NCBI RefSeq assembly: GCF_000003815.2
Contig: NC_049982.1
Location: 17,880,423-17,944,422 of the forward strand
Length of the DNA stretch: 64,000 nucleotides
Source: Branchiostoma floridae
Lineage: Eukaryota; Chordata; Leptocardii; Amphioxiformes; Branchiostomatidae
Direction of reading: 5' to 3'
Positions 3,001 through 52,968 of the stretch are shown piece by piece. Below the pieces are notes generated by a model. The model saw only the letters and a list, made by a program, of their open reading frames with translations, was not told the origin of the DNA and did no database searches. The number at the start of each line of letters is the position of its first letter. Position 1 is the first letter of the stretch. A program made the translations under genes and the position numbers.

Positions 3001-5185
3001 AACTGAAAGAACGCCTAATACTCTTTGACTTTATCTATTCCCTTTCAACCTTCTAGAACTATGACAACGGGAAAACACGTGACGTGCTTTGGACTTATCT
3101 TAAATCTTTGAATCAAAACTGGTCGGAACAAGCTTCACAAACAGCTGTACACAAATGCGAGTGCGGACCTGTTGGGCGGCTACTTCAAACACAAATAATC
3201 TAGCCATTTCTCTCGGATTTCGAGCCTGTACTGTCGTAATCTGTATGTGGATGCACGCTTTAACTCATTATCTTCGCCAAGATAATAATCTTTTCGGTAG
3301 CTTCAATATTTCAACAGGATAACTCGATAACCATTGTATGAATTGTATGGGTAGGTCTGCATAAGAGCACAAAATTGCGAAATTTTGGGCCCCTAGCTAT
3401 AGCGACTTCCTATGGCACTGCAGCGGAAATTACAATTCGGATATCTCGTGATCTGGAAAAGATATGGTCTTGACTGTGGTTGGTTGATAGCTCTTGTGGT
3501 CAGAAAGAAGTGATCTAAGATTCGGCCTTCTATCAGCTTTCTTGGGAACAACATGGTGCATTTAAGTTGTAGACTTCGAAGCATGGTATGTCAAGAAGAG
3601 AAGACTGATTTTGTTTTATTGTTTTTGACCTGTGTACGTAACTGTGAAAAAGACCAATGTCATGGTATGTTTTAGGACATATCTTTATTGACACAACTTA
3701 AAGTACAGCGACTTTCGTAAGGTCTGCTACAAATATATTATATGTGAACAAACAAGTGTATACAATAAATTACATACATGAATGTCTATGAATAAGTACA
3801 TGTATCAATATATTAGCATGTCGAGTCTATAGTATCATTTATACTATTTCTAAGGCATATCTAACTTGGTCCGAGAGGAACATCAATGGATACGACATCC
3901 AAATCATGACCTACTTTCAATAACTAATGAGAAAAATTTATATTACCGTAGTAATAAATGATAGCATATTCATACTAGTGACATATTTGGGTTAAACAAA
4001 GGTGAATATTATCAACCTTATATTATGTAAATTTGGAGAACATGTATGATGTATACGGAAATGTTACAATGGCTTCCTAAAGGAAATTTGTGGCATATGT
4101 GATTTGGAAAGAGGAGATTACGAATTCATAAAAGTCATAGTAATTAGAAACATATTTATCATCTACATTGCAACGAGACAATATTACTTGGAGAAGGTAA
4201 GAGGTAGTAGTTTTATACATGACTTCACTTACAATATTACGCATTATAGATGGAGTACTAGCATATCTGATGTACGGATTCTGCGTGTTGAAATAGAAAG
4301 TTCCTACTCATAAGGATTAACGCCAAGAGATATCAGAGAAACTTGTCAGGTAGGAGACAGATAGGACAGGAGACGTCATTCCAAATACCTCAATTTCCTG
4401 TCAAGAAACCTGACAAGGAAGTATTGCGTTTAACAAGAAGCTGATTATCTAACTGTCAGGCACTAACCAGCAACACCAAGCCTAGGGGTAATTACTCGCG
4501 CTTCTTCCCTGCGATCCTGATAAAGAAATAAATATTGCACACAGACGACACGTCACATCTCAACATCTAATCTTCTACATACAATGTATTGCTAAATTAC
4601 ACGCGTTTTCAGTTTTATGCACAAATCATGATCGCAAAGCGGGCATGATCGATGACATGAACTTTCTAGAGACAACAACTTTTCCCAACATGATTTGTCC
4701 TATGAAATGCCCTTGATGACCTAAACAGGTGAACTCAATGTAACTCCTGTAAATGACTCTTGTAACCCTACGACACTCCAATGCCCTCTTAACAATATTT
4801 GTACGGCACCCAAGCGTTCTGATCGTGTACGTCATGCTCATTACTGTTGCGTTACCGGCAATTTCAGCCCGTGTGTCCTACAGGAACACGCTTATCTCGC
4901 AAATATCACTCCTCCGTAAACGATTACCGGAGCAGGTATATTGGTTTGTACAGAATGGAACTTTTGATGGTTTGGATATCATACAGTGTATCAATACGAA
5001 TATTTTTTAAATTTTTTTTTTATTCTGTTTTCTTTAGCCAGAGTAGCCAAACTCAGTGTATCACACTGATTTACAGTGGGGCCCTGGATAACACTTAGTA
5101 CATGACACATCAACACAATACATAACATACAAATAGTATATACAAAGACCGTTTTCCATAATCATACTTCAGTCCGGTCGTGAGG
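1..5185. other. intergenic, no supported gene
   Basis: The open frames here are short (under 100 codons). None has a recognisable domain or sits between convincing splice sites with a continuing frame. The stretch at about 3.7-4.3 kb is AT-rich. A poly-C patch lies at 2525-2540. I see no RNA gene, though tRNA folds were not searched exhaustively. Confidence 0.5.
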
Positions 5186-7384: not shown

Positions 7385-8776
7385 ATGTCGCCGCACATCC
7401 CCGGGAAGACCATGGTGGCTCTCCTCCTCATTCTTGCTGCGGTGGCCTCCGAGTCACGGTTTGCCCACAAACTTCCTAGTTTTCCAGGTGAGTTATTGTT
7501 TCATGTCCTCAGTCTCCTCTCCACAATGAATGTGTCGAAATTTCACAGGAGTTTCCTACTCGTGTGCGTTCAAGTTTTGTGGTACGTAACATTTTTTTTA
7601 CTTTAAGTGTAGTCGATACGATACGCTATTTCTACATATCTGTCGCATTTGAGCCTGAACGTCATCTTCAACTTGCCTGCGGTAAGTTCAGTTTGGACTT
7701 GTTGAGCGACAAGGCACCGAGCTTAAAGCATCCTTTAAGCGCCTTACCCCATGCTTATGGTGAATTGTGCAAGGCAAAACCTACTCTTTGTAACTTTCGT
7801 CAACCCTTCCCTTTTATTGCATTGCCATCTCGTGTTGCATGCTGCCGGTAAGCAGTTCTAGCACTACAAATAGCTTGCTGTGAGACTCTTTGTTTTAACG
7901 CGTACCTCCAGTAACGAACCTGTTGTCGGGTGTTCAGCACTGTACCCAGTCTCTACGCGATTTTAACTTTTGGCGGACTAAATAAAATAGTAAAAATTGC
8001 CAATTTTTTGACATCTTAGAAAAACTTGGTTGTCATAGGATTGCGCATTTGTTGGTGTTATAGGATGGTCCAGCCTTGGCTGCATGTTCTGTCGTAGGCC
8101 GCATGCTCTTTCTAGAACTTGTCTTAGTATCTCTGAGTACGTGTGTTAGATACTAGTAGATGATTTTCTAAGACACACAGTCGAATTTTTCTTGGGCCCG
8201 AATACAAGCCTAGTCGACAGTGTTCCGTTGTCTGAGGTGCACGCTGATCTTGCAATCCTTTCTGAAACAGATTTTTTTGAATGTCATTATATTGCTATAA
8301 GTTGACAAATTTCCAATCCAACGCATTCAGGAAAAAAGCATCACCACGTGCGCATTTTTTTCTTTGTTACCAGTACATTGAGGTCGACTATAAGTTGTTA
8401 CTTCTCATAGTGACAAATCAGACAATACTTCAGTCTTCCCTGGCGGTGGTCACGTCATTTCTTCCCAATCTACTGCTTCATATACAGTGTATTTTTTTTC
8501 TGTCTTACAGGACTACAGCAGACATCAGGCCCATACGGCCCCAGGGAGCCCGCCACCACACCACTACGCTCCTTCACACAGGAAAGTCGGTGGCAGCCGT
8601 GGAAGCCGGCCGGTGTCGTCCAGACCAGCGAAGGGTCTTCGGCAGGCTTCGGACTGCTGCACGAGTGGTTCCGAATCGGCTCGAAGAGGTCTGGGGGAGC
8701 CTGGGTGGCGGACACGAACATGGACGATATCTCCCCCAATATGTTCAGCCTCCACGGGAAAAGAAATGTCTCCTAA
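7385..8776 (+). CDS. putative secreted, amidated peptide precursor
   Basis: Two coding exons, 7385-7487 and 8511-8776, join across CCAG|GTGAGT and TTCTGTCTTACAG|G in phase 1. They give a 122-residue protein. The N-terminus is a signal peptide with a hydrophobic core at residues 11-21 (VALLLILAAVA) and likely cleavage near AVAS. A second ATG at 7412 (residue 10) has an ideal ACCATGG context and may be the true start; it keeps the signal. There are no cysteines in the product. Lys93-Arg94 follows WFRIGS, and Gly117-Lys118-Arg119 near the end is a classic amidation plus dibasic cleavage site. Processing would release a 22-residue peptide starting SGGAW and ending NMFSLH-amide, leaving a three-residue tail NVS. 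I do not recognise the family. The architecture (short, signal peptide, spacer, bioactive peptide, GKR at the C-terminus) is that of a neuropeptide or hormone precursor. A 1-kb intron separates the signal exon from the peptide exon. Confidence 0.7.
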
Positions 8777-11700
8777 CACTGTTATTCCCCTCCCTATACC
8801 TCAGATAAAGCTCGTCACTGACTTTATGATTCTATTTAACTGAGCACAAACAGCGTGCCTGGAGCACATACTGCACTAATATGGAGTTCGTAAGGAAATC
8901 CACCGTTGGCCAACTATATTGGCAATTTCAAAAAATAAAATTTCCAGAAAAAAAGGAACCATGTCTCGTCTTTTATATGTATATATCTGACGTTCTAACG
9001 ATACTTGGGCTCTCCCATGCCTTCCTTAGGCTTAGGTCCCAATTCAATTGCACCGGTGCCCGCCCCGGCCGGGCTCCGAAGCTACAAATTTGCTCCGGTG
9101 CACTGCCGGGTACCGGGGGTTACCCATCGGTGTTGGTCACGTCGTCTTTTTGTTACCGGTCCCCGGGTTCATCTTAAGTCCAACTTAAATTCAACCCGGT
9201 GCACGGCCGGGCCTAAAAATACCCACGGGGCCACGTAGGGGTCATGCCCGAAAGTGCCAACAGCCCATGAACTGTCCGGCAGGGTCCCGTTTTCCAATTG
9301 GGGCCTGGACGAGCAGTTTGGAGAACGAAAAGTACGATAAAAGTACTTTAATTTTTCGTTTCCGCAAACAGCCCAGCCGGGCCCCGGGTAGAAAATTTGA
9401 CGTATAGGCCTTACCTGGACAGACTTGGTCTCCGGTATCTTTGAACTTTCGAGTAAATGACCGCTTTACTTTGAACAATGATGTACTCTTCTGTAACGTC
9501 TTTCTTGCGTGTGATCAAAGTCTCTTACACGTATTACTATTAGAGCACGTGCCTGTCTATCAAAAAAACGTTAACTAGCATGTGCTAGTTTCGAGTGGTC
9601 AAACATGCAGGGATTGCCTAATCCTCCTGATATAAAGAAGCTGCTCAGACGAGCGACAGATGACCAGCACACAACTTTAAGATCTTACAACTGTGAAGAG
9701 AAAGGGAGATGTGAAAGGGTTGCTTGTGACAGTTACTTTTTGTTCTTAATTGCTCGCTAATGAAGCAGATACTAAGGAGCTTATCGCGTTGAAAGTGTCT
9801 GGATAAGAGTAATAAATCAAAACGTCAGCTAAAGCACGAGGGCGACGTTAATCCACCTGATTCCACCTGGCAGCCACCTGGTAACGACAAAAGGCTGTAA
9901 GTCAAGTATAGAGCTGAAGGCCGCCAATGAAACAACACGCACGCGCGCCACACAAGGGCCCGTTAACCAAGGGGCTCGGAAATAAAGGCCGGGCCGTTTT
10001 CTTATTTTCTTTCCATAGGAACGGCAACATTTTAAACCCCTCACTACCGACAACAAACATCACAGCCCATGGATACATTTACCACGTTAGAGTTGGCACA
10101 AAAGGCGACTTGTCTCCCGACCCCGTAACAAAGTGAGGATATTGCACCATGTCTATCAACGGAAGACCTTGACATTGTAGGTGGAAAATAACACGCTTAC
10201 GTCTGAAAGTTTTCATGTTATTTGGGCAGTTTCTAATACAACAACTAGGACAATTCTAGGTAGTCTCAAAGTGCTTTTGACTGGTGACTTCAAACTTTTA
10301 GGCTCCTTGGTCCAAAGAATTTGCACCTGACTTCAAAGCAAGTAGGTGTAATACACGAGCCAGATGTAATGTACGATTTCGCTATATCTAAAACTGAGCT
10401 AATTCCAGAGTATGTATTCAACGGTTTTGAATGTACTGCTACCCAATAAACCAGACGGCTACATGTGACAGTATTCTGTCGCAAAGGATGCCGCGGAAAC
10501 GTTAAGGTGGAAACATCTGCGTCTGGTCAACACTTCACGAAAACGTCAAGTGGCTGAACAACAAAAAGGAACAGGTTGCTGAGTGTCCTTCAGTGCCGAG
10601 GCAGGGGGCAGAGGGTGGGGGGGGGGGGGCTGTCATGTGTAGGTGAGTCATGCACAGGGACGTGGCTTTCTTACTCTTGGATAACACGGGAAAAACATGA
10701 AAACAGCTCTTGCATAATACAGAAACGCCATTTGTACCTATTGGCAAAATGCCCCACCATGGACCATGTACGTACGGTGTTTCGGACTGGTACTTGTTCA
10801 TGTAAGAAGTCGTTCGCATGGATATTGTATTTACACATCAAATCATCGAATGAAAGTATTTTCTCATGTTATAGCTGATATCTACGACAGCTGGTAGATA
10901 CAAAAAGTATTGCAGACATACGGCATATTATACAAGAGAATTCAAAACTGCGAACTGGATCCAACGTTAACGTTCTTAGAATCCGTCCAACAGCCTCGAC
11001 GCATTCTGGGTAAGCTATCGGATGGTCCATGATGACTAAGAATAGAGTTCTTACAACAACAATTTTTCACTGTTTTTCCATCCTGTTTTCCTTGCTGATG
11101 CTGGGTATTTCTTGGATACTTCAAAGATGTCCTACTTTCAAAACAGGAAGTTATCAGACCTTGGTGTTGATTCAATATTTCTATTGAAACGTCCCAGACA
11201 AATACACGACACCTGTCAAATAGTGTTGCCTGTTGACAAAAATGCAGACTGCTCAACGCCAGGTGTTGAGTATTTTGTCCATTCAAGCGATCACTTTAAA
11301 AACGAATGACACGTACATCTTCATTTTTATCTATTATATCAGCTGTACATATATATTATAATACGTCGCCAACGCTGCACTTTGTAGATGGTATGTTCGC
11401 AATAATGCAAACAAATCATTTGCCACTTCTGTATATGTTGCTGACATCGAAGTAGCCCAGTGCGTGCGTCATCAACATGCATTCCGTCTGATTTCTGTGG
11501 ATGTCGTTTTGATTTTGTGAATTTCGGCGTTTTCATGCCATGCTAACATGTGTTGTCTCCAGCATGATCTGAACTGGTTCCGATCACCTCTCCAATATAT
11601 AGGTGCCATTTTCTATGATGTCACCGTGTGCGATAATGTGAAACTGTTTTCCTAGTACAGTAGCTACAGGGTGGTGGTGGGAATATAATACCTACCCGAC

Positions 11701-12776: not shown

Positions 12777-15700
12777 ATGAAGACCATGACGAGTAGTGTG
12801 CTGTGTGTAGCCGTTCTTGCCAGCCTCACCACTGTTGTGCTTGCCAAACCTGTGAACACTGGTACCGGAGTAGGCGCCGCCATCTCCAGGTAAGACACAC
12901 TTCCAGTCATTTCTTGTCATCAGAAAGTCGGTAAAAAGTCATTGGGACTTTAGCCTTGCGTAAATACCTAGTTTTGTGTGAATGATTCTAAGGTACGTGA
13001 TCGACGATGTGGCAATGCATTGAAGAACATGTATGAGAATCACAATTCCGGAGGAAGCACAATTCCCACAGTAGTGCTCTTTAGCGCACGACTACCAAGA
13101 GTATATTCATCATGGTGATTAGAGGTAGCCAGTTGTTGGAAGTGAAGTCATTTTTCTGACCCTGTTCTTGCGACGGCCGGACTCGCGTCGTGTCGAGCCG
13201 ATCCGTGCTGTTCAGAAAGGGTACAAAGCTCCTCTTTACAAATCGTATTCATGTATGGAAAAGTGAATGACGTGGTTTTATAAAGAACAGAGCAGTGGTC
13301 TCTTTTTCTTTTTTCTTTCTTTGAATTCATCATGTGCGCAATTTCCCCAAAGACGCATTTCTAAGATCACGACTCCATGGCCCCCCCCGTCAGAAAAAGC
13401 TTGTCTCTTGTTTGCCGAGTGCGTCACGGTACAAAAACATGCATACACAACTTGTAACAACGCGAATTTACAAAGCGCTGCCTTTGTATATGCGGCACGA
13501 CGCTAACCTGTTGTCGTTTGACTGACCATGTCCAGGACGATATCGATAGACGACGACAAAGCGCGCAAAAAAGAGCGGCAGTCATAAGTTATGACAGTAG
13601 TAAAAATCATTGTAAGATGTAGATTTCACATATGTATACAAGATGGGAGAAAAGACCATATAAAAGCGGTTACAATAAAAACGATGAAAGGTTAACCCCA
13701 TAGACGAGAACAAGCCAACTGCTCGTGCTGAGGTGATGGTGGGCATGCACGGGCACTTTGATAAATGTTTTTCCTTCATAGAGAGCAACTTTCCCTCATG
13801 TGGATTAGCTTTTTCGTTCTTTGTTTTACGCAACCCGTTACAAAAGTTGTTTGCAGCAACGTAAAGACAGTTCTTTTTACGGTTACATCATGTGTGACGT
13901 GTCCCGGATATCTTCATGACGTCTGTGATCTACACAAGTCTAGACCACTTCATGAAACCGCATCCTGGGTGACTATTCATTAAGAACACACATGAGAAGG
14001 GAAAGAAAGGCTACGGTGGGGGGTGCACGTGGGCAGTTGCCGTGCCCATTAGTCCTGCATCGTCACTAGCTTGTTGAAACACTGAGAACTCTCGATCCAA
14101 TATAATCCGCCATCTCAAGAGCAGCAACACCAAACACCGGAAAATAAACAAGTCACGGCTTGGTGAAGACCGAACCTGGGTGCTCTTGACATTTTTCGCA
14201 ATAGCTATTAATACAAACCTTTGACGTCATTGGGGTTCTTTCGGTCGTGTTGAGCAACACTCATGCCATATTTTGTGACGCTTTCAGTATGATTATCATC
14301 ACCGACTTTTGTGACCGCTCTCGACAAGGGGTATGATTTTAGTGCGTCTGTGACTGAACGGTTGGACACTAATACTTGCCATTTTTAAACGGTTAAACTA
14401 ATACATAGTCTGATCAGGCTTCTGCTTAGTTCCACGGAGACTTTCACGATGGTTCGTTATGAAACGCGCTTTCTAGAGTTGTTTTTGCCCCGCTGAGATG
14501 TGATGTAATCAAATACATTAGATATTTGCTGACAGTGGTGTAACGGGAGGATGCTAGATATGTTGCATAAACACAAATGACGTAACATTTCAATGATGTT
14601 GCAATATCGCAGCTGGAACCCTGATATAACGTTGCAATGAATCGTAGCTTTATCTCGTAAGGTTTTCAGCATCTTAGAAATCAACTGATCTCAGGAAATT
14701 GTGAAATTCAATCTTTTCTCCGCCTGTTCACTCTTGTCCCCGTGTCTAGACATGGTCAGAAAATGTTTTATTTTTACTATTATAATATTCTTCCTCTTAA
14801 AATAAATCATTCATTTGTTCATAAATTCAAAATTATACAACTTTCATCAAAATTAAAGACAAAGCAGGACAAAACGGCTCTTGGTCAATGTGCTAACCCG
14901 GATTTGAGGACACGGTGTATCCCCTGGTACATCACTGGTCCGAGATAAGAAGCACCAACTCTCTGAAGTCTGAACTCTACTTAAGTGATGCTCTTGACTC
15001 CTAAGAAACAACTTACACAAAGCGCCAACAGCCTGTCCCTGGGGTAAGGCACGTGCTGAAAGACAAGAAGAACCCGGAGCCCGTGTCTGCATCAGTAGGC
15101 AGTGAAGTTGGTGCCGACGTGTTATACACTGTACCGGATACTACTGAAATATCTGTTTATGGTTAAAAACATGATATTGCTTAACAAGCAGGAAGGGAGG
15201 AAACAGCAGCCGATACTTAAGTTCAACCCACCCTTTTCTGTCGGCATAGAAAACGAATTATTGATCTACATATCCCTAATCACCACTAATACCACATATA
15301 CTACCCGGTAGTGTTTTAGTTTCATATTCCATGACTTTTGTACTGCTAAGCCCAAAGGTAATCATTCTGCATCCTCTCGGCTGCAGGCTCCAGGCGTGGA
15401 ACGGGTTCGTGTCCCAGCTGGAGATGCTACAGACGGCCATCCCCGAGCGGCTGTACTCGAAACTCGTCGCCGACCTGCTCCAGGCGCTGGCTCGGGCGGA
15501 CACCGACGCGCTCCAGAGGCTCCTCCAGGCCACCAGTCCGGACTCAACTACCGACGATATCGAGGGTGAAGGCCGGGGAGGTATCGATCTTCTGGCCGTC
15601 CTTGATAAGTTCCTACAAACCAAGAGAACACCCCACAAGCACAAACACCACACGCTACCGAATGAGGATGAAGAGACAGCTGAAGTTGTCGGCATGTTTG

Positions 15701-16240
15701 ACAGGTCAGTGGCCATGCAGTTGAACGTACGCCAGACCCTGTTAAAGTTGGATCCTAGCACTGTTCTAAAGGGCAGCTTTGTTTCACAGCTGCATGTTTC
15801 ACATTTTCTTATTTTTTATCCATAATGTATAATGAAACAGGCACTCAAGGAGCCATCTGCTTCAAACATAATGCTCTAATATCATGGCATATTTTTTCTT
15901 TCTTTAATATATGAACACCTGAGACGGGCTCATCTGTCAACACCTGTTGTCATTTTCATAAGGTAATTCTTTTTTTAACTTCACTAGGCTGACGTCCGGA
16001 AATAAGGAGGACAGGATCCACGTAGAGGAAGACCAGGAGGCGACTGATGTGAACCACCACGGCAGGACAAAGCGGATGGTGGAGGTGTTGTTATCGGGGG
16101 ACCGGGAGAGAGAAGCCGCCCGGCAGGAGGAGACGGAGGTGGAGCGGATGATCCGGCGGCTGGTGGCGGAGGCGAGCGGGATGATCCTCTACACGCTCAT
16201 GAGCGACTCCTTGGCAGAGCTTCAGCCGGGACAGTCCTAG
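12777..16240 (+). CDS. putative secreted, cysteine-free propeptide
   Basis: A non-coding first exon (about 12490-12531) is followed by coding exons 12758-12889 (ATG at 12777), 15387-15704 and 15988-16240. All joins are phase 2 with AG|GTAAG or AG|GTCAG donors and CAG or TAG acceptors, giving 227 residues. Residues 1-23 form a signal peptide with predicted cleavage after VVLA. The mature part has no cysteine. It begins with an amphipathic, Leu-rich helical stretch (LQAWNGFVSQLEML ... LLQALARADTDALQRLL). Dibasic sites follow at LQTKR, before a His-rich piece TPHKHKHH, and at GRTKR, a furin-type R-T-K-R. The C-terminal 54 residues are again helical and charged. I do not recognise the family. A multi-peptide hormone precursor or a helical cytokine-like factor are both possible. 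The 2.5-kb intron at 12890-15386 shows nothing I can name. Confidence 0.72.
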
Positions 16241-18566: not shown

Positions 18567-21954
<3,388 letters not shown>

Positions 21955-22891: not shown

Positions 22892-25800
22892 ATGGCAGAC
22901 GGTGGAGATCCGGGCTCTGGAGGTTCAGATGACCGCAATGTGCCCCGTAACCCCAACCTAGAGGGTGTGCTGAGATATGCCATAGAAAACACACCTGAGA
23001 ATGCAGGTGACACACCTGTATCACCTGGACCCATGGATGTAAATGTGAGTCAAATATACACACACACATATGCAGAGAGAGAGAGAGAGAAAGATAGAGA
23101 GAGAGATGGGAGAACATGAACCAAAAAAATAGTCAAGAGCGGGTTACTACACTGGTAACGTTAGTGGTTCCTTTTACAATGATATTAAACGGGTATCTTG
23201 ATGACAAAATGACAGCAAACCTTAACCCCAAAGGGTTTAACTATACAGGCTTTTCATTTAACGTTATCTGTGCCATGTTGGATTAGAGTGTATATCTGTT
23301 AATCACACGAAGATGCTACTCTTCAAATATCCGCCAATGTGATCGTCAGAGGATTCAAATTGACGTCAATGAAAAGTGGAAGGAAAAAGTTACATAAGCA
23401 TCTGATGAAGGGTTCGATGAAAGAGCTGGGCTGGGCCCCTGGCCTGTCTACCTGGCCTGTCTACCTGGCCTGGCCATCACGTCAGGCCACCAAGATACCC
23501 CCATTCATACCCTCAGAAATTCTCAGCCTCTCATCTAGCTGCGCCCTCTAGCAGAATATAGACAAATTGTCGAGAGCATGTACTTAGTGCATTGTCAAGC
23601 CACCTACGAGCAAGATAAGCTGATATCTATTCAATGTTACTTGTCTGAATTTAAATTTCTAAGGGTCTGCAAATAGATAAACAACAACATTAAGGGAGAT
23701 AGAAACGACGCTTGTGGTTGATGTTGAGAACAACGATACCATACTCACAGTGTAACATTTGATCTAGTGGCAAATGTTACAACAGGCAGTTTGGCCAAAC
23801 AAAGGAGGTCATATTTAGGTCACCACGTAACTGCAGGCCTGGGTATGGCAGAAACGGGTGCTGTCAGAGGATTGGACATTTATTTGACATCTTCCCCTTC
23901 ACGTTATCGAAGGTTTGAAGATTGAATATTTATTCTTCAATGTACATAACAAGGACTGACTGCTTCTTAAAACAAGGCTGGAATACAGCAGTTTGTTTTT
24001 CATTTTATAGCAAATGTTAGTTTAACACACTGCTTTAGGGATCCGATCCCCCAGACAACTCTCTAAGGGAACTAAGCGCCAAGCATGTGACCCCGGTCAT
24101 CTCAGACGCTCCACCTGTCACGTCTCTTTTAATAAAACAGCAACAGGCGCTTGTCCAGGGACAAAATACATGTAGTTGATTGAGAGGCGTAGTAATTGCT
24201 ACTCTTTAGCGCTGTCAGAGAACTCAGCCTGGCCTGTCAGCCCGGCCCCTTGACTGGCCCTTTGAGGAAGTAAAATTATAACTCTGTCTGGGAGGTATTA
24301 GGCCTTTCTACCAGCCAGAAATACAAGTACCACAGTTTGTGTCTTTTTGATCTGTCTTCGACTAGACCGTACAACAAAAAGAGAAGTAATGTTCATGACG
24401 TGCTGTTTAGAGGTAAAACAACACTTTCCTCTCCGCAGTCCCCGGAGCCAACAATCTCCACCCATTCCTACACAGAGTGCCCCAGTTGTTTCTCTGACCC
24501 CTGTGTGACATCGAGGCCACAGAAATGGCGGGGAGGGAAACCCACCAGACCAAGGAAAAACTGGGAAAATCTGCTCTTCGGAAAACTTTGTACAGAAAGT
24601 ACTGGAAAGTCTTAAATGACCGACTTGCCTGGTACGATCCTAGATATATAGACAAGAAGAACAGAATGGATTATGGAAGTAACGTTATACCTGGATGGAT
24701 TAGATGGAAGCAAATGCTTGGTTCCCTGTAGACACAGTCTGACAGAGCAGAGTGTTGGAGAAATCATGCCTGACTGTCATACACTAAGTTCACCAGCACT
24801 ACCCAAATTTGTCAAAGGTGCCATACAAAGACCACAAGTTCTTCTGAGCCATATGTTCTTCTAAACCAATCTCGCAAGATTCTGCTCTTTTCGTCACAGT
24901 ATTTATCGCACTAGTCTGTAAAAAAGTACCATAGTTTGTGTCTTTATTATATATCTGGGGTGAAACAACATTTTTTTTTAAATTTCTTTGTTTAAACCCC
25001 CAACCGTTCTCCAGAGCGCATGTTTCAGCTTCACCACCTTGCCCTTGGGAAGATTCTCCTGGCTGGAGCAGAAAATCGGGGCACAGCGCTAGCCAGAGAG
25101 CAATTACTCCTTCCCTGCAAGATTTGACATCTGGTCCTCACAACCTGCCCTGTATCCCAGAACAGCCTGACAGTGTACTGTTCTCACACTGTTATCTATA
25201 TCTTTTCATAATATTGTTTTGCAATATCAGACTCTAAAAGCCCCTTTTCCATAGTTTTGCATGTAGCATTGTAGGCAGTAAAGGTTTTTGTTATGACTTT
25301 TGTACTGCTGCCTACTGGTAAAATGCTATACAGGCCTTTTTGTGACAGGAGCCAGTAGAATCTTTAATGGTCTGTTTCCAGATTGGAGAATGTCATCGGT
25401 TATTCTAAAAGAAATACGTTACATACCAAATACAGTTCTTGAATGAAGTACATTACAAATTTAGGATAAGCTACTTTGATCATTCAGTCTCAACGTATGT
25501 ATCGCAGGCTAACAGAAACTGTGAATGTAAAAAGAGGTGCCAGTATTTGACATTGGATAAGCATAGAAATAACATCATAAAGGCAAGAAAGTCTCCATCA
25601 TAACTACAAGCACAAAACTACAAGATCATAAATATGAGCTACAATTGGTGGGTTCCTGGTAGACACAGTCCAACAGAGCAGAGTGTCAGAGAAATCATGT
25701 CTCAGACTGCGTCTTACACCAGGCAGAAAGTATTAGGGTATAACTATAAGGGCAAGTATTCTATAGCCTTATATTTTTGGCGTTCTGTCTAAGAACAATG

Positions 25801-28800
25801 TTGTGAAAAAATCTCAGGGCAAAATACATCATTTTTTCTATAGACGTGTGTGATACATACTGTGGCGAAAAGAGCAGGAAAGCGCAAGTTTGGATCTGTT
25901 TGTTGACACTACAAAACGTAATGGTTCAGAAGAACTTGTGGTCTTTGTATGGAACCTTTGACAACTTGGGTAGTGCTGGTGATTGTGAACCAGTAACTTT
26001 GTGTAAGACACGGTCAGGCATGATTTCTGTAACACTCTGATCTGTTGGACTGTGTCTACAGGGAACCAAACATTTGCATCTAATCCATCCAGGTATAACA
26101 TTACTTCCCTAATCCAATCTGTTCTTCTTGTCTATATATCTAGGATCGTACCAGGCAAGTCGGTAAAGACTTTCCAGTACTTTCTGTACAAAGTTTTCCG
26201 AAGAGCGGAGTTTCCTTTTAATGGTCTGGTGGTTTTCCCTTCCCGCCATTTCTGTGGCTTCCATGTTACACAGGGGTAAGAGAAACAACTGGGGCACTCT
26301 GTGTTGGAATGGGTGGAGATTGTTGGCTCCGGGGACTGGGAGAGGAAAGTATTGTTTTACCTCTAAACAGCACGTCATGAACATTACTTCTCTTTTTGTT
26401 GTACGGTCTAGTCGAAGACAGATCAAAAAGACACAAACTGTGGTACTTGTATTTCTGGCTGGTAGAAAGGCCTAATACCTCCCAGACAGAGTTATAATTT
26501 TACTTCCTCAAAGGGCCAGTCAAGGGGCCGGGCTGACAGGCCAGGCTGAGTTCTCTGACAGCGCTAAAGAGTAGCAATTACTACGCCTCTCAATCAACTA
26601 CATGTATTTTGTCCCTGGACAAGCCCCTGTTGCTGTTTTATTAAAAGAGACGTGACAGGTGGAGCGTCTGAGATGACCGGGGTCACATGCTTGGCGCTTA
26701 GTTCCCTTAGAGAGTTGTCTGGGGGATCGGATCCCTAAAGCAGTGTGTTAAACTAACATTTGCTATAAAATGAAAAACAAACTGCTGTATTCCAGCCTTG
26801 TTTTAAGAAGCAGTCAGTCCTTGTTATGTACATTGAAGAATAAATATTCAATCTTCAAACCTTCGATAACGTGAAGGGGAAGATGTCAAATAAATGTCCA
26901 ATCCTCTGACAGCACCCGTTTCTGCCATACCCAGGCCTGCAGTTACGTGGTGACCTAAATATGACCTCCTTTGTTTGGCCAAACTGCCTGTTGTAACATT
27001 TGCCACTAGATCAAATGTTACACTGTGAGTATGGTATCGTTGTTCTCAACATCAACCACAAGCGTCGTTTCTATCTCCCTTAATGTTGTTGTTTATCTAT
27101 TTGCAGACCCTTAGAAATTTAAATTCAGACAAGTAACATTGAATAGATATCAGCTTATCTTGCTCGTAGGTGGCTTGACAATGCACTAAGTACATGCTCT
27201 CGACAATTTGTCTATATTCTGCTAGAGGGCGCAGCTAGATGAGAGGCTGAGAATTTCTGAGGGTATGAATGGGGGTATCTTGGTGGCCTGACGTGATGGC
27301 CAGGCCAGGTAGACAGGCCAGGTAGACAGGCCAGGGGCCCAGCCCAGCTCTTTCATCGAACCCTCTGATGAAACAGATGACTGTCATTGGGTCTATTGTA
27401 GGGCTGGGTACCGGTACAGAAAATTTAGGTCCAGGTCCGGTTCAGGTCCAGAGATCAGGTCCAGGTTCGGACCTGAACCTGGACCTGATTCAGTATGACC
27501 AATGGTCCATTTCAAAGAAATCTGTTTGATGGAGTATTAGACTATCAGTGGCGTTTTTAAATCCTACAACGCTAACTGCAACTGTACGATTGACTGTAAA
27601 ACTTGGAAGAAATGGCTATAAACTCTACCCTACTTCACTCTTGTTATTTTCTTCCACTTGCAAGCGCCAAAACGTGTGAATGCCTAATCAAATAGTCTGT
27701 TAATTTCCTAATAGGTCCAACATCTGGTCCACCTAATTTTTTCAGGTCCGTTTTTTCTAGACCGGTCCAATGAGAAAAAACGGTTTTGTACCGGTACGCT
27801 GTATCGGTACCCAGCCCTAGTCTATTGACTTGTTAGGATCAGATATGAGTAATATCACAACACTGCCATCATGTCATAAATGTCATTGTTATGTTCTCCC
27901 ACAGAGAAGACAGTGGCTGGGAGCAGCTCTGCATCAGTTTGCACAAACAGCCCAGGATGATGTGGAGCAGATGAAAACATGTCTGCAGACATTGGCAGAG
28001 GGGGGTGAGGACCACATAGAGGAGAAGGAGACAGCTATGGAGGAGTTGATGGATCTCTGCTGTAGTATTGATAATGCACAAGGTACATTGCTGGGTCAGT
28101 GGGACAGGGGAAAGATATGACTGTGATAGATCTTTGCCATATGGTGTGAAAAAAGTGTAAATTATAAAGTATGAAAGCTGAACACAAAAATAATATACAC
28201 ACATCCTGACCATTCTCTGGCAAGTTTAAGCCTAAGGTCTCTTTGCAACTTCTGTTGAGTGTTGTTAAGATGTATGCCAAAAAGCAGTTTCTCAAGCAAG
28301 ATGTGAAGATGTGTTTGTATTTGCCAGACCTGCACAAGATGGGCGGCCTAGTGCTGGTCATAAGCTACCTGAAACACCGGAACAGTGGGCTGCGGTGGAG
28401 AGCAGGTGATGTCATCGCCACGGTAACACAGAACAACCCCTTCTGTCAGGCTGCAGCCCTGGAACTGGCTGCCCTGCCAACATTGCTGGAACTGGTCGAC
28501 ACAGATCCAGATTCTAACGTCAGGGTCAAGGCACTCTATGCTATATCACGTAAGGGTCAATGTCCTGAGAACTTGAGATTCTGTTCCTCAAACTTTGACA
28601 AGGCACCATTATAATGGATCACTACAAATATAAGATAAGTATAAGATAAGGAAATTTTGAGCAGAAACAGTGGATGTAGATTTTTGTAAAACCAATCAGA
28701 TTAGCCTGACTAGGGAAGGGAGTCAGCCAGAGATTATGTAAAAGAAGCATTTTGTAATTAACCTCATATAGTAAGCCATGTTGTTACTGAAGGTAACTGA

Positions 28801-30247
28801 AGTGTTTGATACAATCTTAGTAAATGGTATCGCTCAGTGGTATATATAACATATTGTAACACTATATCAAAGACTAATGTGTCAGCCCTTCTTGTTACGT
28901 TAATTAGGATATCAAGTCTTATTCTCTACACCTATTTTGTACTTTGTGTAACAGTCGTTGCCATACTTTGTACCATGTACAAATGTCGAGCAATAAAGTT
29001 CTATCTATATAGTAGCCAGGCCACAGAATCACAAGACCAACACTGTACTACTGTTGTGTAGGTCTGACTGGCAGTTGTGAGGAGGCCCAGCAGAGGCTGG
29101 TTGAACATGATGGCTTCTCTGTCCTGATGAGGGCCATGCAGAGTGATACCGAGAAACTCAAGGTCAAGGCAGCCTTCCTACTGAGGAATCTGTGCCTCAG
29201 CAACCCACAACACAAAGGTTAGCTGCTTGTTTATGTAGTCATTACATATAAACCTATAAAAGGATACATGTTAGCAATGCATGTCAATCAAATTTTGTCT
29301 ATCCATTCCTGAACTCCAAAATCTGACTTGTCCAATAACATAAAAAGTTTCATTTTTACCTTCATTCATTCCCCTTCACTAGGGAAATCATTTTTGAAAG
29401 GTTACAAACATATGATCTAATTACAGCGGTCACTGCACAGGTAAAAATCTAATCCTTTTCCAACAAATACTTTTCCTCATTTTTCAATAAGCTGCAAACT
29501 AACTGCTTGTCCCACAGATACCCTGTGTAACATGGGCATGGTGACTCAGCTGGCCTCCATGCTACAGACGGAGCACAACACCTTCCACGAACACCTGATG
29601 GGTGCACTTGTTGCCCTGGTGACAGGGAACAGACAGGCTGTGAAGGACTGCAGACAGCCACAGCTGCGGCTGAAGCAGGTGCTGACAGATAGGATAGAGC
29701 ACCTGAAGGGGAGAGAGGAATTTCAGGTAGGACTGTCAGTTTGTAGTTTCTGTTAGAGTACTCAGCACATGATGATGGAACACAATGTTTGATCAGTGAT
29801 AGCCTGGTGGCCATCCTAGTTAGTTTTCTGTGCACATGTGTCTCTTATACTTTTATTATCATTTTTGAGAAGCTAGTATGGGAACCAAAAAGATATGGCA
29901 CAAAGTCTAAATCTTGGATTCATTGTAAATTGAAATGTCTCCAGTGAATACATGTATCTATTTGATTTCAAACATATGACCCAATAATGCATGTGTCTTT
30001 TACTTTCTGAGGTTGACATGATAGCAAGGATTGTGGTAGTAGTCTGACATCTTTTCACTGCCAAAGGAGTACATTTGTTATGTTGATATTCATATGATGA
30101 TAAATAGATGGATGAACATGTACATATTTATGTCATTATGACCTGAGGTTTTCCCTCCATCCCCAGGAGGAGATGGAGTATTGCCAACAGCTCCTACACA
30201 TCTGCTTCAGTCAACATGATGACACCTTGGCAGCAGCTGACAGATGA
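22892..30247 (+). CDS. HSPBP1: Hsp70-binding protein 1
   Basis: Armadillo-repeat nucleotide-exchange factor of cytosolic Hsp70 (Fes1/HspBP1 family). Six exons: 22892-23044, 27905-28082, 28328-28549, 29062-29217, 29518-29726, 30167-30247. All joins keep frame and give 332 residues, a little shorter than human. The N-terminus is Gly/Asp-rich (MADGGDPGSGGSDD) and then carries NLEGVLRYAI. The armadillo core contains SGLRWRAGDVIATVTQNNP, VRVKALYAIS, HDGFSVLMRAMQSD, LKVKAAFLLRNL and TEHNTFHEHLMGALVALVT, which line up one for one with the vertebrate protein. Intron 1 (23045-27904) is about 4.9 kb and is mostly transposon (fold-back element plus hAT MITE). The protein is convergent with the kinesin gene; AATAAA at 30999-31004 is the probable poly(A) signal. 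Confidence 0.96.
23056..23107. repeat. CA/GA microsatellite
   Basis: ACACACACA followed by (GA)n with small interruptions, beginning a few bases inside HSPBP1 intron 1, directly after the GTGAGT donor. Confidence 0.7.
23401..23409. repeat. left 9-bp target-site duplication
   Basis: TCTGATGAA immediately left of the fold-back element; the identical copy is at 27364-27372. Neither side extends to a tenth matching base, so the duplication is exactly 9 bp. Confidence 0.8.
23410..27363. mobile_element. long-TIR fold-back element, Mutator-like
   Basis: The element opens GGGTTCGATGAAAGAGCTGG and closes with the exact reverse complement. It is bounded on both sides by the 9-bp direct repeat TCTGATGAA (23401-23409 and 27364-27372). 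The two arms, about 23410-24925 and 25840-27363, are inverted copies of roughly 1.5 kb. They are almost identical in their outer 1 kb and more diverged inward. A unique centre of about 0.9 kb lies between. A 9-bp target duplication with very long terminal inverted repeats is the hallmark of Mutator-like elements. No transposase frame is visible, so it is non-autonomous. It sits wholly in HSPBP1 intron 1. Confidence 0.85.
27364..27372. repeat. right 9-bp target-site duplication
   Basis: TCTGATGAA immediately right of the fold-back element, matching 23401-23409. Confidence 0.8.
27399..27819. mobile_element. hAT-type MITE with 8-bp TSD
   Basis: A 421-bp non-coding element begins TAGGGCTGGGTACCGGTAC and ends GTATCGGTACCCAGCCCTA, an inverted repeat. 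It is flanked by perfect 8-bp duplications GTCTATTG (27391-27398 and 27820-27827). An 8-bp duplication with TAGGG/CAGGG ends is diagnostic of the hAT superfamily. Near the left end a run of GGTCCAGGTTC / GGACCTGAACC forms a second, internal palindrome (about 27429-27488). It inserted 26 bp to the right of the fold-back element. Confidence 0.85.
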
Positions 30248-31964: not shown

Positions 31965-39823
<7,859 letters not shown>

Positions 39824-40708
39824 GGTTATTGTCGTTTGGTTCAAAGTTGTCCTTGATTTTTAAAAAGTTTGATTTTGAATTGAAGCAGACTTCTGGATTC
39901 TCTCAAGAAGGTGCTGTACATGAAAATAAAGACAAGATTATATTTCAATTTCAAATTTAGTTGGCAGGGATTTAAAGAACTGATGATTTACAGGGTATCT
40001 AAGTTTCATCATTCAGTAGTCATTGCAACAAAAAATTATCACAACATATACCTGGATACTAAAGCTAACATGATTACGTACATACTGGTTATAACACCCC
40101 TTGTAAAATGATTGCATGCAGTTTTGATTTCTACTCGATATCATAGCAAAGTTTTATTTTCAAGGTTGGCTTGAAAAAACCTTGAACCACCTAATACTCA
40201 AACTGAGTCAAAGGCTGTAGCCCTGTAGACTGTATGGGTTGACATTTTCAGCTGTTTCTTCTGTCCAGACGCAGAAACGTCCACTCATACAGAGTCGAGT
40301 CTCCAGGGTACATAATTTAGGACGTTTTAAATAAATCAAGGTTGCAGAAACGTCCACCCGTACAGAGTATCACTCCAGTGCAGAAAGGCCTCAGCAAATT
40401 GCTATTTTACTATAGCCCTTTCAACATAAGCTCCAGATCGCTTCCGGCTAGACACTCAAACTCAAACCAAGGATGCTCAAACGACGCTTTATATTTGGCC
40501 AACATGCATCAAAATACATACTTTACGGCGAAACCTCATATCAGAAACAGCTCACTTACCTTCGCACTTCTCATATGGTAGCATTATTTGATATTCTGTG
40601 CTAGAAATCTGAAGAAAAACGCCCAAATTGGGTCAAGTTAAAAGAGAGTCCATAAAAATCCTTGTCTCGAGCAAAATTAAAAAACGAGCGTTAAAATGCG
40701 GCCTCACC

Positions 40709-40870: not shown

Positions 40871-43378
40871 ATGATATTTCGGAAAATGTTAACCGTTGAG
40901 TTTAACGGACTTCGCCTTCTGAAGAGACTTTCAGCCGCAGTGTATAGAAAGCGGAACGTTGGTTCTGCTGCCGAACACATGGGGCAATCGAAAGTTTTGG
41001 CAGACGACGGTCACCACATGTGGGTTGGGGAGGGGGGCAGTGGGTCAGGTATGCCGCACACTCCTGTGATGGTCCGAGAGGTTTTGGACTGTCTGGACCC
41101 TCAGCCGGGACAGGTTAGTTAGCCTGTCACTATTGTGGTTCAGCCCTTTGTTGCAGTTGTCCATTATTTCACTTTTCGGAAATCTTGGTGTCACCCGAAT
41201 TTACCTGAACTACAGAGACTCCATGTCTCTGCAGTCAGGAGCTGGAAGGCTGGTACTGACACTCCTCCGACGATCTCGGCTTCTATGTATCCGCGTCGAT
41301 CTTATTCTTAAAACAGTTCACTGTGGTCTGGGTAACTACCTCAGACGGAAGTTCATTCCAGGCTTTTACGACTCTTTACAGCGAAGGATCTTCTCCGGAT
41401 TTCCAGCTTGGTATAGGGTATTGAGAGTCTCAGAATGAACTGAACTTGATTTCACTAGAGCCTAGAAACGGGGTCTTAACTGACTTAAGGTGCGAAAAAT
41501 TGCCGAACCCTGCAAAAATATAATGTGATCAAGAAATGAAATGTCAAGTCTATAATTTGATACTAACAATTTGAGGGCAAAAATTGTGAAAATACGTATT
41601 TTTTTAAGCTAATTCAGTTGACAAGTGAGTTTAGCATATCTCTTAACAGGTAACAGTAGATGGATGTGTATCTGATGTTTTTTTATATTGTCTATCTTAT
41701 ATGAGTATATTTATTTCCTACAAATGGTAGGTGTATGTTGATATGACGTTTGGTGCTGGAGGGCACACAAAGGCCATCCTCGCAGCACAACCAGACACCG
41801 TGGTGTATGCAATAGACAGGGACCCAGCTGCACACAACATGGCACAGAACATAGCCAAACAGTATGGGTAAGTACATGTATTATACATGTATAATTCCTA
41901 TGTTCTGAAATATGGTTCCAGCACTGTCTCCAGTACCTGACTCTCCGTCCCGGGAGGGGAATTGGCTTTTTCAAGTTGTTGGGACAGACAAAAATTTCAC
42001 CCCATCCTTTCCAAAATCTGAACTTCAGCACATTAAATTGATGACAATGTACAGATTTGTAAATGAAAACCAACAACATGGGCTCCCAAACGAAGAGTGG
42101 GACGGAAAAAAATTAAACCTGCCGAGACATCCCTGTATGGTTCCCTCTTTCATTCAAGGCTATGGTGTTGTGTCATTGATACAACTGAACTGTTGAACCA
42201 CAACTGATATGTTGAAGTAGTTTGGGTTGGTCAGCTTAGGATCAGGCCATGGCGATGAGTTCCCATCATAAAGACAGTCTTTTTCTCATCCCCACACAGC
42301 AAATCCATCCGCCCTGTGCTGGGGCGCTTCAGTGAGCTGCTGTACCTGCTGAGTTCCCAGAATGTGCAGGAGAACACAGTGGATGGCTTCCTGTTTGATG
42401 TGGGAGCCTCTTCCATGCAGTTTGACCAGGGCGGGCGAGGGTTCTCTCTGAGCCAGGACGGACCACTGGACATGCGTATGGATGGGGAGAGGTAAGGAGA
42501 CTTGTTTGGAGATGTATAGAATTGCTTTTTCATGCAGAAAAGTAAAGGTAGTTTTCTTTGTTTTTCAAGCCTTTTTGATTCATATGCTTGAAGGAATTAA
42601 TGCTCAGAAGTCCAAAATAGATGGTATAAATAGATGATGTTAATATAAAGATGGTATAAATAGATGATATAACCCATTTGTTCCATATTTAGGAAGTTAT
42701 TTATTGGTAGGAATCATGAGAACTATACAGTTACTCAATATAATCAAAAACTTTCTTGACAGATTTGGAAACAAGCAGCCCACAGCAGCAGATGTGGTGA
42801 ACTCTCTGGGTGAGGATGATCTGTATGGCATCATCAAGACATATGGTGAGGAGAAACATGCGCGGAAGATTTCCTCTGCTATTGTAGACGCTCGAAACAA
42901 GATACCAATCACAACAACTAAACAGCTTGCTGGGGTTGTGGCTTCCGCACTTGCACCTCCTGGTGTTTTCTTTGCTCATGACAAACTGAACAGGGCAGTT
43001 CACCCGGCCACAAAAACTTTCCAAGCCCTGAGAATCTTTGTGAATGATGAGCTGAATGAGCTGTATCAAGGATTGCAGGCTGCTAGGTACTTTTAAAACC
43101 TGGCGGGCGTGCCATTGTGATACATTCCATTCACTGGAAGATCGTGTAGCAAAACGATACTTCCAAGGTGTGAACATGAGGCAGCACGGCAGATAATATT
43201 CAACAGAGAAGCGAGAGGGGACCTTCTAAAAGAGGAGGGGCTTCCAGAGGTAGAAATGCATGACCCAAGGAAGGAGTGGACGATACTGACAGGTAAAGTG
43301 ATGAGACCACACTGGGCTGAAGTGATGGAGAACCCAAGAGCAAGATCAGCTAAGCTCCGAGCTGCCATAAAAAACTAA
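40871..43378 (+). CDS. METTL15: mitochondrial 12S rRNA m4C methyltransferase, frame-broken last exon
   Basis: RsmH/MraW-family methyltransferase, which N4-methylates a cytidine of the small mitochondrial rRNA. Exons: 40871-41113, 41731-41867, 42300-42491 and a last exon from 42763 to TAA at 43378. Exon 1 looks like a mitochondrial presequence (Arg/Lys/Ser-rich), then [20 protein letters not shown]. Exon 2 has the SAM-binding [17 protein letters not shown]. Exon 3 has [15 protein letters not shown] and [10 protein letters not shown]. The last exon reads well to LQAARYF and then hits TAA at 43094. The expected continuation ([23 protein letters not shown], then [14 protein letters not shown] and stop) is present but in three successive frames. 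Each step is one missing base: about 43091-43097, 43122-43125 and 43163-43190. The three losses restore the original frame. Either sequence error or decay of the C-terminus. Confidence 0.85.
41195..41415 (-). mobile_element. LINE ORF2 C-terminal fragment
   Basis: On the minus strand, between stops, the frame reads [14 protein letters not shown] followed by [11 protein letters not shown]. This is the usual end of a CR1-like non-LTR retrotransposon ORF2 (WN-x-LP-x-x-VV ... V-x-x-FK-x-x-LD). It lies inside METTL15 intron 1 in the antisense direction. Only the last roughly 40 codons are recognisable. Confidence 0.6.
42620..42671. repeat. short tandem duplication
   Basis: AGATGGTATAAATAGATGAT occurs twice in a row (about 42619 and 42651) in METTL15 intron 3. 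Confidence 0.6.
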
Positions 43379-46086: not shown

Positions 46087-49000
46087 TCATTCTGGAAGTT
46101 GTAGTCCCAAGAACTCGTCCTTCCTCTTGAGGTACTCATTGAACCGTAGGATGCCGTAGCTGTGCAGTAACACACGATAAAAGTACCAGTTAATTATACA
46201 ACTATCCAGCACAAACTTCATCAAGAATTCAAATTGATGATGACAGATGAAAATATGTTAATCTCAAAAATGCCAGCTTAGCCTTGTATGTGAGCAAGGA
46301 TTTCAAATGTGTTATTAAGTACTAAGTTAAATCATCAAGTTGCTTCAAAAAACCAAATATGTTTCCTTACTCCAGGAAGTCAAAGTCAATGGCAGAGAAC
46401 CTGGCTTGGATGAGTGCCCACAATCCCCAGAAGAAATGAGAAGCCTGCAGGGAATAAACAAGCTAAAGTACCTGTGTGCTCCAATTGACTTTATACACTT
46501 GATTAAGTAGCATTTTAATGCCAACAGCAAAATTTGGGGGCATGGTTGTGGACTGACAAACACCTGAAACATATAAACAAGGGCATCTTTATCTTCATTT
46601 GCAAAATGAACTGTTGATTTAAAACCTACGTGAAGAGTACCCTTCTGAACTCACCAAGGCAAACTTGTTGACCTGGATGTACAATATCTCCACCTCCCTG
46701 TCTGTGACAGGCTGAGGCCGATCCGCGTGGAAGTACTGCAGGTAACTCCTGAGCCAGGCGAGCTGGAACTCCCTGTCTGGGTACAGGCTGTAGTCAACCT
46801 CATCTACACCTGTACAAGGGGAAATCTTTGGATTTAGATTTTTTGTAGTCTGTGTAACACAAACTCTGCTGTCCGGGGCTGTAACTGGCCCCTCCCCGCC
46901 GGCGGATGTGGGTGGGCTGCTATAAGCGAGATTCAGTCAGGCTAGATTTTTTGGTTGTGAAAATCTAAAAAAAAACACAAATAAGTCTCCTTCCCACAAG
47001 ACAATAGGCCACTTAAAACAAGTTGAAAGTCAGTCTGTTGTGAATCTGTGCCAGTTCTGATGATGTAATTTGACAACTTTTTTAGCCTATCTGAAATTTT
47101 TCATACATGCTGACTTTTGCACTAAATAGACAAATGAAGACATAGACCTCTGGATTCATAATCAATCATTTATTACAAAACAAGTCTAATGAATTACACC
47201 TATTGTACAAACCTGCAAATTCATCAAAGTGGTTGGCAATGTCATAGGCCTGGAAGTTGTAGCTGGCATACTCATAGTCTATGAAGGTCACCTTGTCTGC
47301 GCACAAAAGAAAAAAACTCACTCTTAAGATAAAATCATAAAGTGCTTTCATGTACGAATTCTGAATCATTAAAATACAAAAGTTTATTTGCACATATCAA
47401 AGGCAAATAAAGCAAAGAGAAGGAGTGACTTCCCGACCTTCAGCCTCTGTGTACACAATGTTTTTACAGAGCAAATCATTGTGACAGAAGACGACTGGTG
47501 AGTTGAGTGGTAGCAGCGCCCCCTTGAGACTCTCCAACTCCTGCTGTAGTTGGGTGGTGCTGGGGACCTCCTTCTGGTACCTACAGGAGGTGTGTGTGTG
47601 GGGGGGGGGATACTAGTACTTAAAGTTTGGAAATGTTTGCAGTGGTTCTATTGTCATAAACCTTGCCCTCATGAATATGCATTTCTACTGTAACACTTTC
47701 AACCACAAACAACAAGAACCTCCTTACCCCTCCTATCCTGAAATCAAGTCCCAGCAAAATATATAACTTAAACAGTATTAGGGCGATGAAACATCAGACA
47801 CATTTATGTCCAACATGAAAATAAGACATATAGACTACAAACTGGGTTATGATATTTCATGCCAAATATGCCTTACTGAGTGATAGTCACAATCCTCTGG
47901 TACCCCTTTCAGGAGGAAGGGGAGTCTGTGTGTGAGAGGGGTTAAGTACAATCCAACCTCTCACCTTTGGTTTTTCTCAGCATCAGTGAAACTGTCTGGA
48001 ATAAGAGTGAAGTATTTGGACATTTTGACAAAGAGGCTTGGCTCAGGGATCTTCCCATTGGCTGGCTGGATGTGGTGCATTCTGGCCATCTCTCGTCCAT
48101 TCAACCTGATGAGACAAACACAGGTTGAAATTCTATCACTGGGCTAATTTTTTCTTTCTTTTCAATATTAGACATGCCCTCAGGATGAGAGAATGGCTAC
48201 AAAGACTGCCTACCTCTGTTGAAACATAAAAATACAAACATAGAAATGCAAATTCCACGAACATGAAGCTCTCATCAGTCCAACTGCTAAATGCCATTCT
48301 ATCATTGGTGGAACTGCTAATTGAGATGGACAGTCTAGATTAGTCTATTGCTGTCCATCATTAGCAACAAGACTACATGTACATACAAAAAAATACATTT
48401 CTAAGATTAAAACTAAGACACTCTATTGTCACTGAATTTAATTTTCCAGCAGTGCAAATACAGCTTTGGTACATTTTTCAAACAGATGTTATAGCATCCA
48501 ATGTATTCCTTCCTTTCAGCCCACGCCCCTGACAGGCACCAGGTCCTGAATGTTGACAAATCACCCCTGGATGCCCCCAGGGACAGGAATTGCCCTGAGT
48601 GATGATAACAGAATACCAAGTGAGCACTTGGGCAGACTGCCAGCATTTACAGGGCTAATAAGGGGGGAGGGAAAAGTAGGTAATAAAACTGACATGCTGG
48701 CAGCTAGCAGATTAGTCAAGCCAATGAGATGAGCAATGACATGTAGGTGTTTGTATATGGTGGGGCCAGGGGTAGTTGTGCAACTGTAGTTCATGTTCAT
48801 GTACAGTCTGAAAAGGTTGACATGTCTGCATGGATACTGATTTGTTGGGGGTCACATAGTCATGAGTAAATAGCATTCTGTCTTTTCTGACATAGCCAAA
48901 GTGCCAATTTGACATGTACAGGGGGGAGGGGATGTGTTAAACAATTTGAAAATTTTGAGAGAGAAGCACAATATTCTATATTGCATACAGGTTTAACTGT

Positions 49001-52718: not shown

Positions 52719-52968
52719 CTTACTCTCACCAGGATACTAGTTGTATTCTATTCACCACACACTAACGTAAAGTCGCCAACAGAAATTCATCCCGCATATA
52801 TTACGTACATTTTCGTGAAGGTTAATAACAAGTTCATTCAATTTATTGTTTTTATTTTGATGGATGATTCAAAGATATATTCTACTACATGAAATACTGG
52901 TTTGAAATACTTATCGCGTTTATTTGCTGTCAATTGACCTGAAAAACGGGTCGCAGCTGCACGGTACG

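Follow-up and report, generated by a model that had tools for sequence, protein, structure and literature searches.

Gene structure and chromosomal context point to a probable divergent kisspeptin-type precursor gene in Branchiostoma floridae

A two-exon gene in a 64,000-nucleotide stretch of Branchiostoma floridae DNA (the whole stretch that was analysed, hereafter the window) is probably the gene for a divergent neuropeptide precursor of the kisspeptin type in an invertebrate chordate. Kisspeptin is the hormone that controls puberty in people. The initial annotation had left the predicted peptide unassigned to any family, which is probably wrong given the gene layout, the neighbouring genes and the precedent for a His-amide kisspeptin in the text of PMC4062910; it had compared the peptide with RFamides, and the cephalochordate kisspeptins that are not RFamides went unmentioned. 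Its gene model, by contrast, stands: both exons, the clean phase-1 splice, the Lys-Arg pair and the Gly-Lys-Arg site lie where it had placed them, and the predicted two-exon model is very likely real. The features are:

7385..7487, + strand: coding exon 1, holding codons 1-34 and the first base of codon 35, for the predicted signal peptide and the first part of the propeptide
7488..8510, + strand: phase-1 intron, 1023 nt, GC 0.413
8511..8776, + strand: coding exon 2, with propeptide, peptide, cleavage and amidation sites and stop
8684..8689, + strand: Lys-Arg 93-94, convertase site preceding the peptide
8690..8755, + strand: predicted mature peptide SGGAWVADTNMDDISPNMFSLH, residues 95-116, His-amide (cleavage and amidation predicted)
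8756..8764, + strand: Gly-Lys-Arg 117-119, amidation donor and convertase site
8934..8939, + strand: candidate polyadenylation signal AATAAA, 158 nt 3' of the stop

Exon 1 is 103 nt long, so the intron is in phase 1, and it splits a Gly codon; a further in-frame ATG of this exon lies at 7412 in the context accATGg. The splice junctions read CAG/GTGAGT at the donor and ttttttttctgtcttacag/G at the acceptor, which is preceded by a strong pyrimidine tract. GC content is 0.583 in exon 1 and 0.609 in exon 2, compared with 0.413 in the intron and 0.397 directly past the stop, and non-coding positions 8961-9300 are likewise GC-rich (0.55); within exon 2 the in-frame third position is the richest of the codon positions (0.736). 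Just 3' of the candidate poly(A) signal, three imperfect, GC-rich direct repeat copies of 25 nt lie within 9044-9211 and are 68-100% identical to the reference copy. A bacterial-type promoter scan upstream of the peptide gene returned nothing, such a scan not being applicable to an animal gene.

Joining exons 7385-7487 and 8511-8776 yields a precursor of 122 residues whose most hydrophobic 10-mer, VALLLILAAV at residues 11-20, has a mean Kyte-Doolittle value of 3.35, whereas 10-mers starting past residue 30 reach a maximum of 0.66. The precursor has no cysteine and no dibasic pairs other than those at 93-94 and 117-119, and it ends in Gly-Lys-Arg, NVS and the stop. Since there is a single Lys-Arg, a single Gly-Lys-Arg and no Lys or Arg within residues 95-116, one 22-residue His-amide peptide would be expected, with a calculated [M+H]+ of 2364.038 and [M+2H]2+ of 1182.523 in its amidated form. 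This anatomy backs the earlier prediction of a secreted precursor that would release one C-terminally amidated peptide of 22 residues.

Similarity searches did not name that peptide. The whole precursor and three pieces of it matched no Pfam family at E values up to 10, although a kisspeptin model exists in Pfam, and a sequence search of the PDB gave weak matches only, the best E values being 0.33 (precursor) and 0.74 (peptide). When the 22-mer was aligned with 50 mature peptides (two of them from PMC12002301), none was significant over 50 tests; the lowest P value was 0.031 for orcokinin, and the next-lowest uncorrected values were 0.058 for NPFF and 0.087 for cerebrin. Human kisspeptin, galanin and spexin were all outside the best 12 of the 50 local alignments, among which the worst P value was 0.31. 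With Pfam, PDB and peptide alignments all null, sequence alone does not place the peptide. A full-text literature search with five stretches of the 122-residue protein found no match, and neither the 22-mer nor its neighbourhood is printed in the text passages covered from the amphioxus kisspeptin literature, as distinct from its figures and supplements. Within the window we found no tandem paralogue (the best other tblastn match, E 0.055, falls inside a kinesin gene) and no other kisspeptin-like end that both precedes an amidation site and lies in an open frame exceeding 36 residues, which contrasts with the nearly consecutive record numbers of the B. floridae precursors Bflo1 and Bflo3.

What the peptide shares with kisspeptins lies at its C-terminal end and in the layout of its gene. 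Four kisspeptin precursors are described from B. floridae, with peptides ending in RF-amide, VF/SF/PF-amide, W-amide and H-amide, the His-amide being that of Bflo3 (GI:260826605), and the same text gives all chordate kisspeptins an N at -7/-8, an N at -5/-6 and F/W at -3/-4 from the amidated residue (PMC4062910). The 22-mer has F19 at -3 and N17 at -5; at -7 and -8 it has S15 and I14 in place of an N, and it ends in LH-amide where vertebrate kisspeptins end in RF/RY-amide. In simulation, the pair of F/W and N at these positions had a frequency of 0.40% among random 10-mers and 1.75% among shuffled versions of the 22-mer; together with a C-terminal His it was present in 0.0085% of random 10-mers. 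The pair was present in 0/33 other peptides (four of them from papers), while human kisspeptin-10 and two eel and one coelacanth decapeptides have all three positions. Because the N at -7/-8 is absent though called conserved in all chordate kisspeptins, we stop short of calling the gene a proven kisspeptin.

The genes of vertebrate kisspeptins and of starfish KPP1 are described as having two coding exons and a phase-1 intron, with the signal peptide in exon 1 and the neuropeptide in exon 2 (PMC9400282), and the eel kisspeptin gene likewise has two exons by the account in PMC5766898. The amphioxus gene follows this layout, its predicted signal peptide and its 22-mer being encoded by exons 1 and 2, respectively, with a phase-1 intron between them, and the 22-mer is followed by GKR, in keeping with the GK/GKR amidation and cleavage feature of kisspeptins. 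The gene is probably either Bflo3 itself or a relative of that His-amide precursor, perhaps its orthologue; as a second N is reported for Bflo3 and absent in the 22-mer, identity is unproven.

Five neighbouring genes could be named in the window:

18585..21309, - strand: PSMC4 (26S proteasome subunit 6B) gene; subunit 6B is the PDB match of 20403-20666 (E 9.5e-39), AAA domain at 19218-19430 and 20002-20175 by Pfam, the rest by coding score and by eye
27896..29735, + strand: HSPBP1-type gene; 28276-28542 matches HspBP1 in PDB (E 1.1e-9), the rest by coding score and by eye
33059..39859, - strand: kinesin-8 (KIF18/KIF19-type) gene; kinesin motor domain (Pfam) at 39395-39859, similarity of 37754-37987 to PDB kinesin-8 motors, remainder from coding score and by eye
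40892..43366, + strand: MraW/METTL15-like methyltransferase gene; Pfam Methyltransf_5 at 42668-43096 and 41752-41862, outer exons by coding score
46652..52721, - strand: ethanolamine-kinase-type gene; exons 46652-46936, 47427-47609 and 49603-49749 by Pfam choline/ethanolamine kinase
52602-52721, - strand: probable N-terminal exon of the ethanolamine kinase gene, by eye only, with no Pfam family

The top matches of the kinesin search in PDB were unnamed kinesin-like proteins, followed by KIF18A (1e-22) and KIF19 (1.2e-20). The kinase was typed by aligning trimmed pieces of three of its exons with fragments of human ETNK1 and CHKA; ETNK1 scored above CHKA in 3/3 exons (145 vs 61, 113 vs 80 and 93 vs 28), and the kinase was therefore called ETNK. 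No kinase was matched when its C-terminal exon was searched against the PDB. We take human PSMC4 and HSPBP1 to lie at 19q13, KIF18A and METTL15 at 11p14, ETNK1 at 12p12 and ETNK2 at 1q32; KIF18B and KIF19, the remaining kinesin-8 genes in humans, lie on chromosome 17, which counts against the kinesin as an anchor.

Human chromosomes 1, 11, 12 and 19 are those given for the Kiss regions in the text of PMC3530029 and for the KISS/GAL/SPX paralogon in that of PMC4489612, and ETNK2 is described among the genes around human KISS1 (PMC3591744). ETNK, the sole neighbour tied to KISS1 by a paper, is 38 kb from the peptide gene. The likely human counterparts of the neighbours would thus fall on the chromosomes of this paralogon, but none of the 11 marker families printed in PMC3530029 is among the annotated exons of the window. 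From the distribution of these counterparts, the window resembles part of the ancestral region before its duplication into the KISS/GAL/SPX regions. More tentatively, the gene could be the orthologue of the vertebrate KISS genes in its ancestral place and still lie near ETNK, with a peptide that has lost the RF-amide end and one of the two conserved asparagines and is read by one of the expanded set of amphioxus kisspeptin receptors, which we consider possible without favouring it. The linkage of KISS and ethanolamine kinase between lancelets and vertebrates would be more than 500 million years old.

Other features of the window were observed along the way. Between PSMC4 and HSPBP1 lies an inverted repeat (23409-24434 / 26339-27364) with arms of 1026 nt that are 100% complementary; it continues inwards as three more arm pairs (84-96%) to about 24777/26010, leaving a centre of 1.2 kb, and may be a large foldback element, a recent duplication or an assembly artefact. 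Downstream of the peptide gene, the next place with a strong coding signal is 15343-16234 (+ strand), where two stretches without a Pfam family score higher than any others in the window (72.0 and 52.3, the first inflated because part of that stretch was in the training set). Beyond the ethanolamine kinase gene are coding-like stretches at 54686-55205 (- strand), of which 54686-54946 has no Pfam family, and a 60-nt tandem repeat of 2.5 copies at 57660-57810. The window contains no tRNA and no Rfam families.

Two alternatives would deny that the 22-mer is a hormone. We regard it as extremely improbable that the two exons form a reading frame that arose by chance or has decayed. A codon-usage model trained on 736 codons of neighbouring exons found exon 2 exon-like, yet it did not prefer the true frame (0.123 per codon for frame +1 vs 0.074), and, among listed frames of at least 100 amino acids, all three forward frames are open across exon 2, as is one reverse frame except for its last four bases. 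However, we scanned both strands for a signal exon, a scored intron and a dibasic...G-dibasic arrangement near the C-terminus, with 400 dinucleotide shuffles of the window in 1000-base blocks as control, and at the main donor/acceptor thresholds of 6/6 the window held one model while only 3/400 shuffles held at least one. At 8/7 there was one model vs 1/400 shuffles and at the loose 4/4 three models vs 23/400, figures that are optimistic because the criteria were set after the case was seen. Two of the three models at 4/4 start from another first exon at 4753-4935 (+ strand), an unrelated ATG exon with a hydrophobic product and a weak donor, whose splicing to the peptide exon in the loose scan is probably due to chance. 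The exon 1 donor, moreover, is the sole perfect CAGGTGAGT in the 64 kb with both strands counted, and the shifts in GC at the exon borders and the AATAAA past the stop also argue against a chance frame. The gene might instead be real and its product secreted without the 22-mer being a hormone, the GKR serving as a convertase site only or the propeptide being the active part. The segment upstream, AGFGLLHEWFRIGS, does end at the same Lys-Arg; but a GKR three residues ahead of the stop, with Lys-Arg 93-94 as the sole other dibasic, is how amidated single-copy precursors usually end, and we consider this alternative very unlikely, if a little less so than a chance frame.

The remaining alternatives accept the hormone and dispute its kinship. 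A member of the galanin/spexin branch, with the Trp near the N-terminus corresponding to Trp2 of galanin and spexin, is in our view unlikely. KISS, GAL and SPX are proposed in the text of PMC4131245 to be local duplicates in one linkage group, so the neighbours fit galanin/spexin equally well, and by eye A-W-V-A-D-T...I-S-P loosely parallels G-W-T-L-N-S...L-G-P. Since the same context suits both families, the choice between them turns on gene structure and the N/F pattern. The Tyr9-Leu10-x-Gly12 core is absent from residues 95-116, and neither galanin nor spexin ranked in the best 12 of the 50 alignments, though kisspeptin did not either. The coding sequences of human GAL and SPX are split among more exons than the two of the peptide gene, which also counts against them. 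Somewhat less improbable, though still doubtful, is a lineage-specific amidated precursor with no homologue among known families, its kisspeptin-like features being coincidental; the null results in Pfam, PDB and the 50 peptides favour it, as do the failure of one of the three kisspeptin positions and the fact that a signal exon with a phase-1 intron is common among secreted proteins. It would, however, require the gene layout, the His-amide precedent, the N/F pattern and the chromosome context all to coincide, and we prefer the kisspeptin-type reading.

If the gene is of kisspeptin type, its signal peptide would route the chain into the secretory pathway, where, judging from the sites present, a prohormone convertase would cut past Lys-Arg 94 and past Lys-Arg 119, a carboxypeptidase would trim the two basic residues and PAM would convert Gly117 to the amide on His116. 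By analogy with the family, the 22-mer may then act, through its C-terminus, on a receptor of the kisspeptin type (GPR54-like), which would signal via Gq/PLC/PKC in a reproductive or neuroendocrine role. An amphioxus kisspeptin receptor is described as triggering PKC, not PKA, signalling (PMC7282810), and an injected amphioxus kisspeptin-like peptide as raising gpb5 expression (PMC5766898). B. floridae is credited with 16 kisspeptin-type receptors and only four precursors (PMC4062910, PMC9400282). A locus placed by gene structure and neighbours offers a testable ligand for these receptors. The ends of the B. floridae kisspeptins are so varied that their kinship is hardly visible from sequence alone, and the present case points to chromosome context as a means of naming peptide genes beyond the reach of alignment; should the locus be the known Bflo3 or its orthologue, the gain would be limited to the chromosomal evidence.

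Among known systems, two families were considered and dropped. Pigment-dispersing factor (PDF)/cerebrin, with a PDF peptide that also lies near the C-terminus after Lys-Arg, resembles the lancelet peptide weakly (the cerebrin alignment above, uncorrected over 50 and not significant), and the family is said to have been lost in the chordate lineage (PMC4772807). Bombesin/GRP, including B. japonicum DKGQEHWQYGHWY-NH2, shares a phase-1 first intron and a secreted amidated peptide, but by the account in PMC12002301 that intron lies within the peptide-coding sequence and is followed by one of phase 0, whereas in the lancelet gene 60 residues separate the intron from the peptide downstream of it, and the model contains no other intron. 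Galanin and spexin share the proposed ancestral linkage group (PMC4131245), but the lancelet peptide has no W-x(6)-Y-L-x-G core. Vertebrate KISS1 and KISS2 differ in their N-x-N-x-FGLR[FY] core, absent from the lancelet peptide, and in RF/RY-amide rather than LH-amide; they are alike in having two coding exons, a phase-1 intron and an exon 2 peptide followed by GK/GKR, human KISS1 also has an ethanolamine kinase nearby (PMC3591744), and the eel Kiss2 precursor has 134 residues (PMC5766898) compared with 122 in the lancelet. Bflo3 (GI:260826605), although said to have the second N at -7/-8 that the 22-mer lacks, is likewise cephalochordate and shares with it the His-amide end and the F/W and one N at the stated distances.
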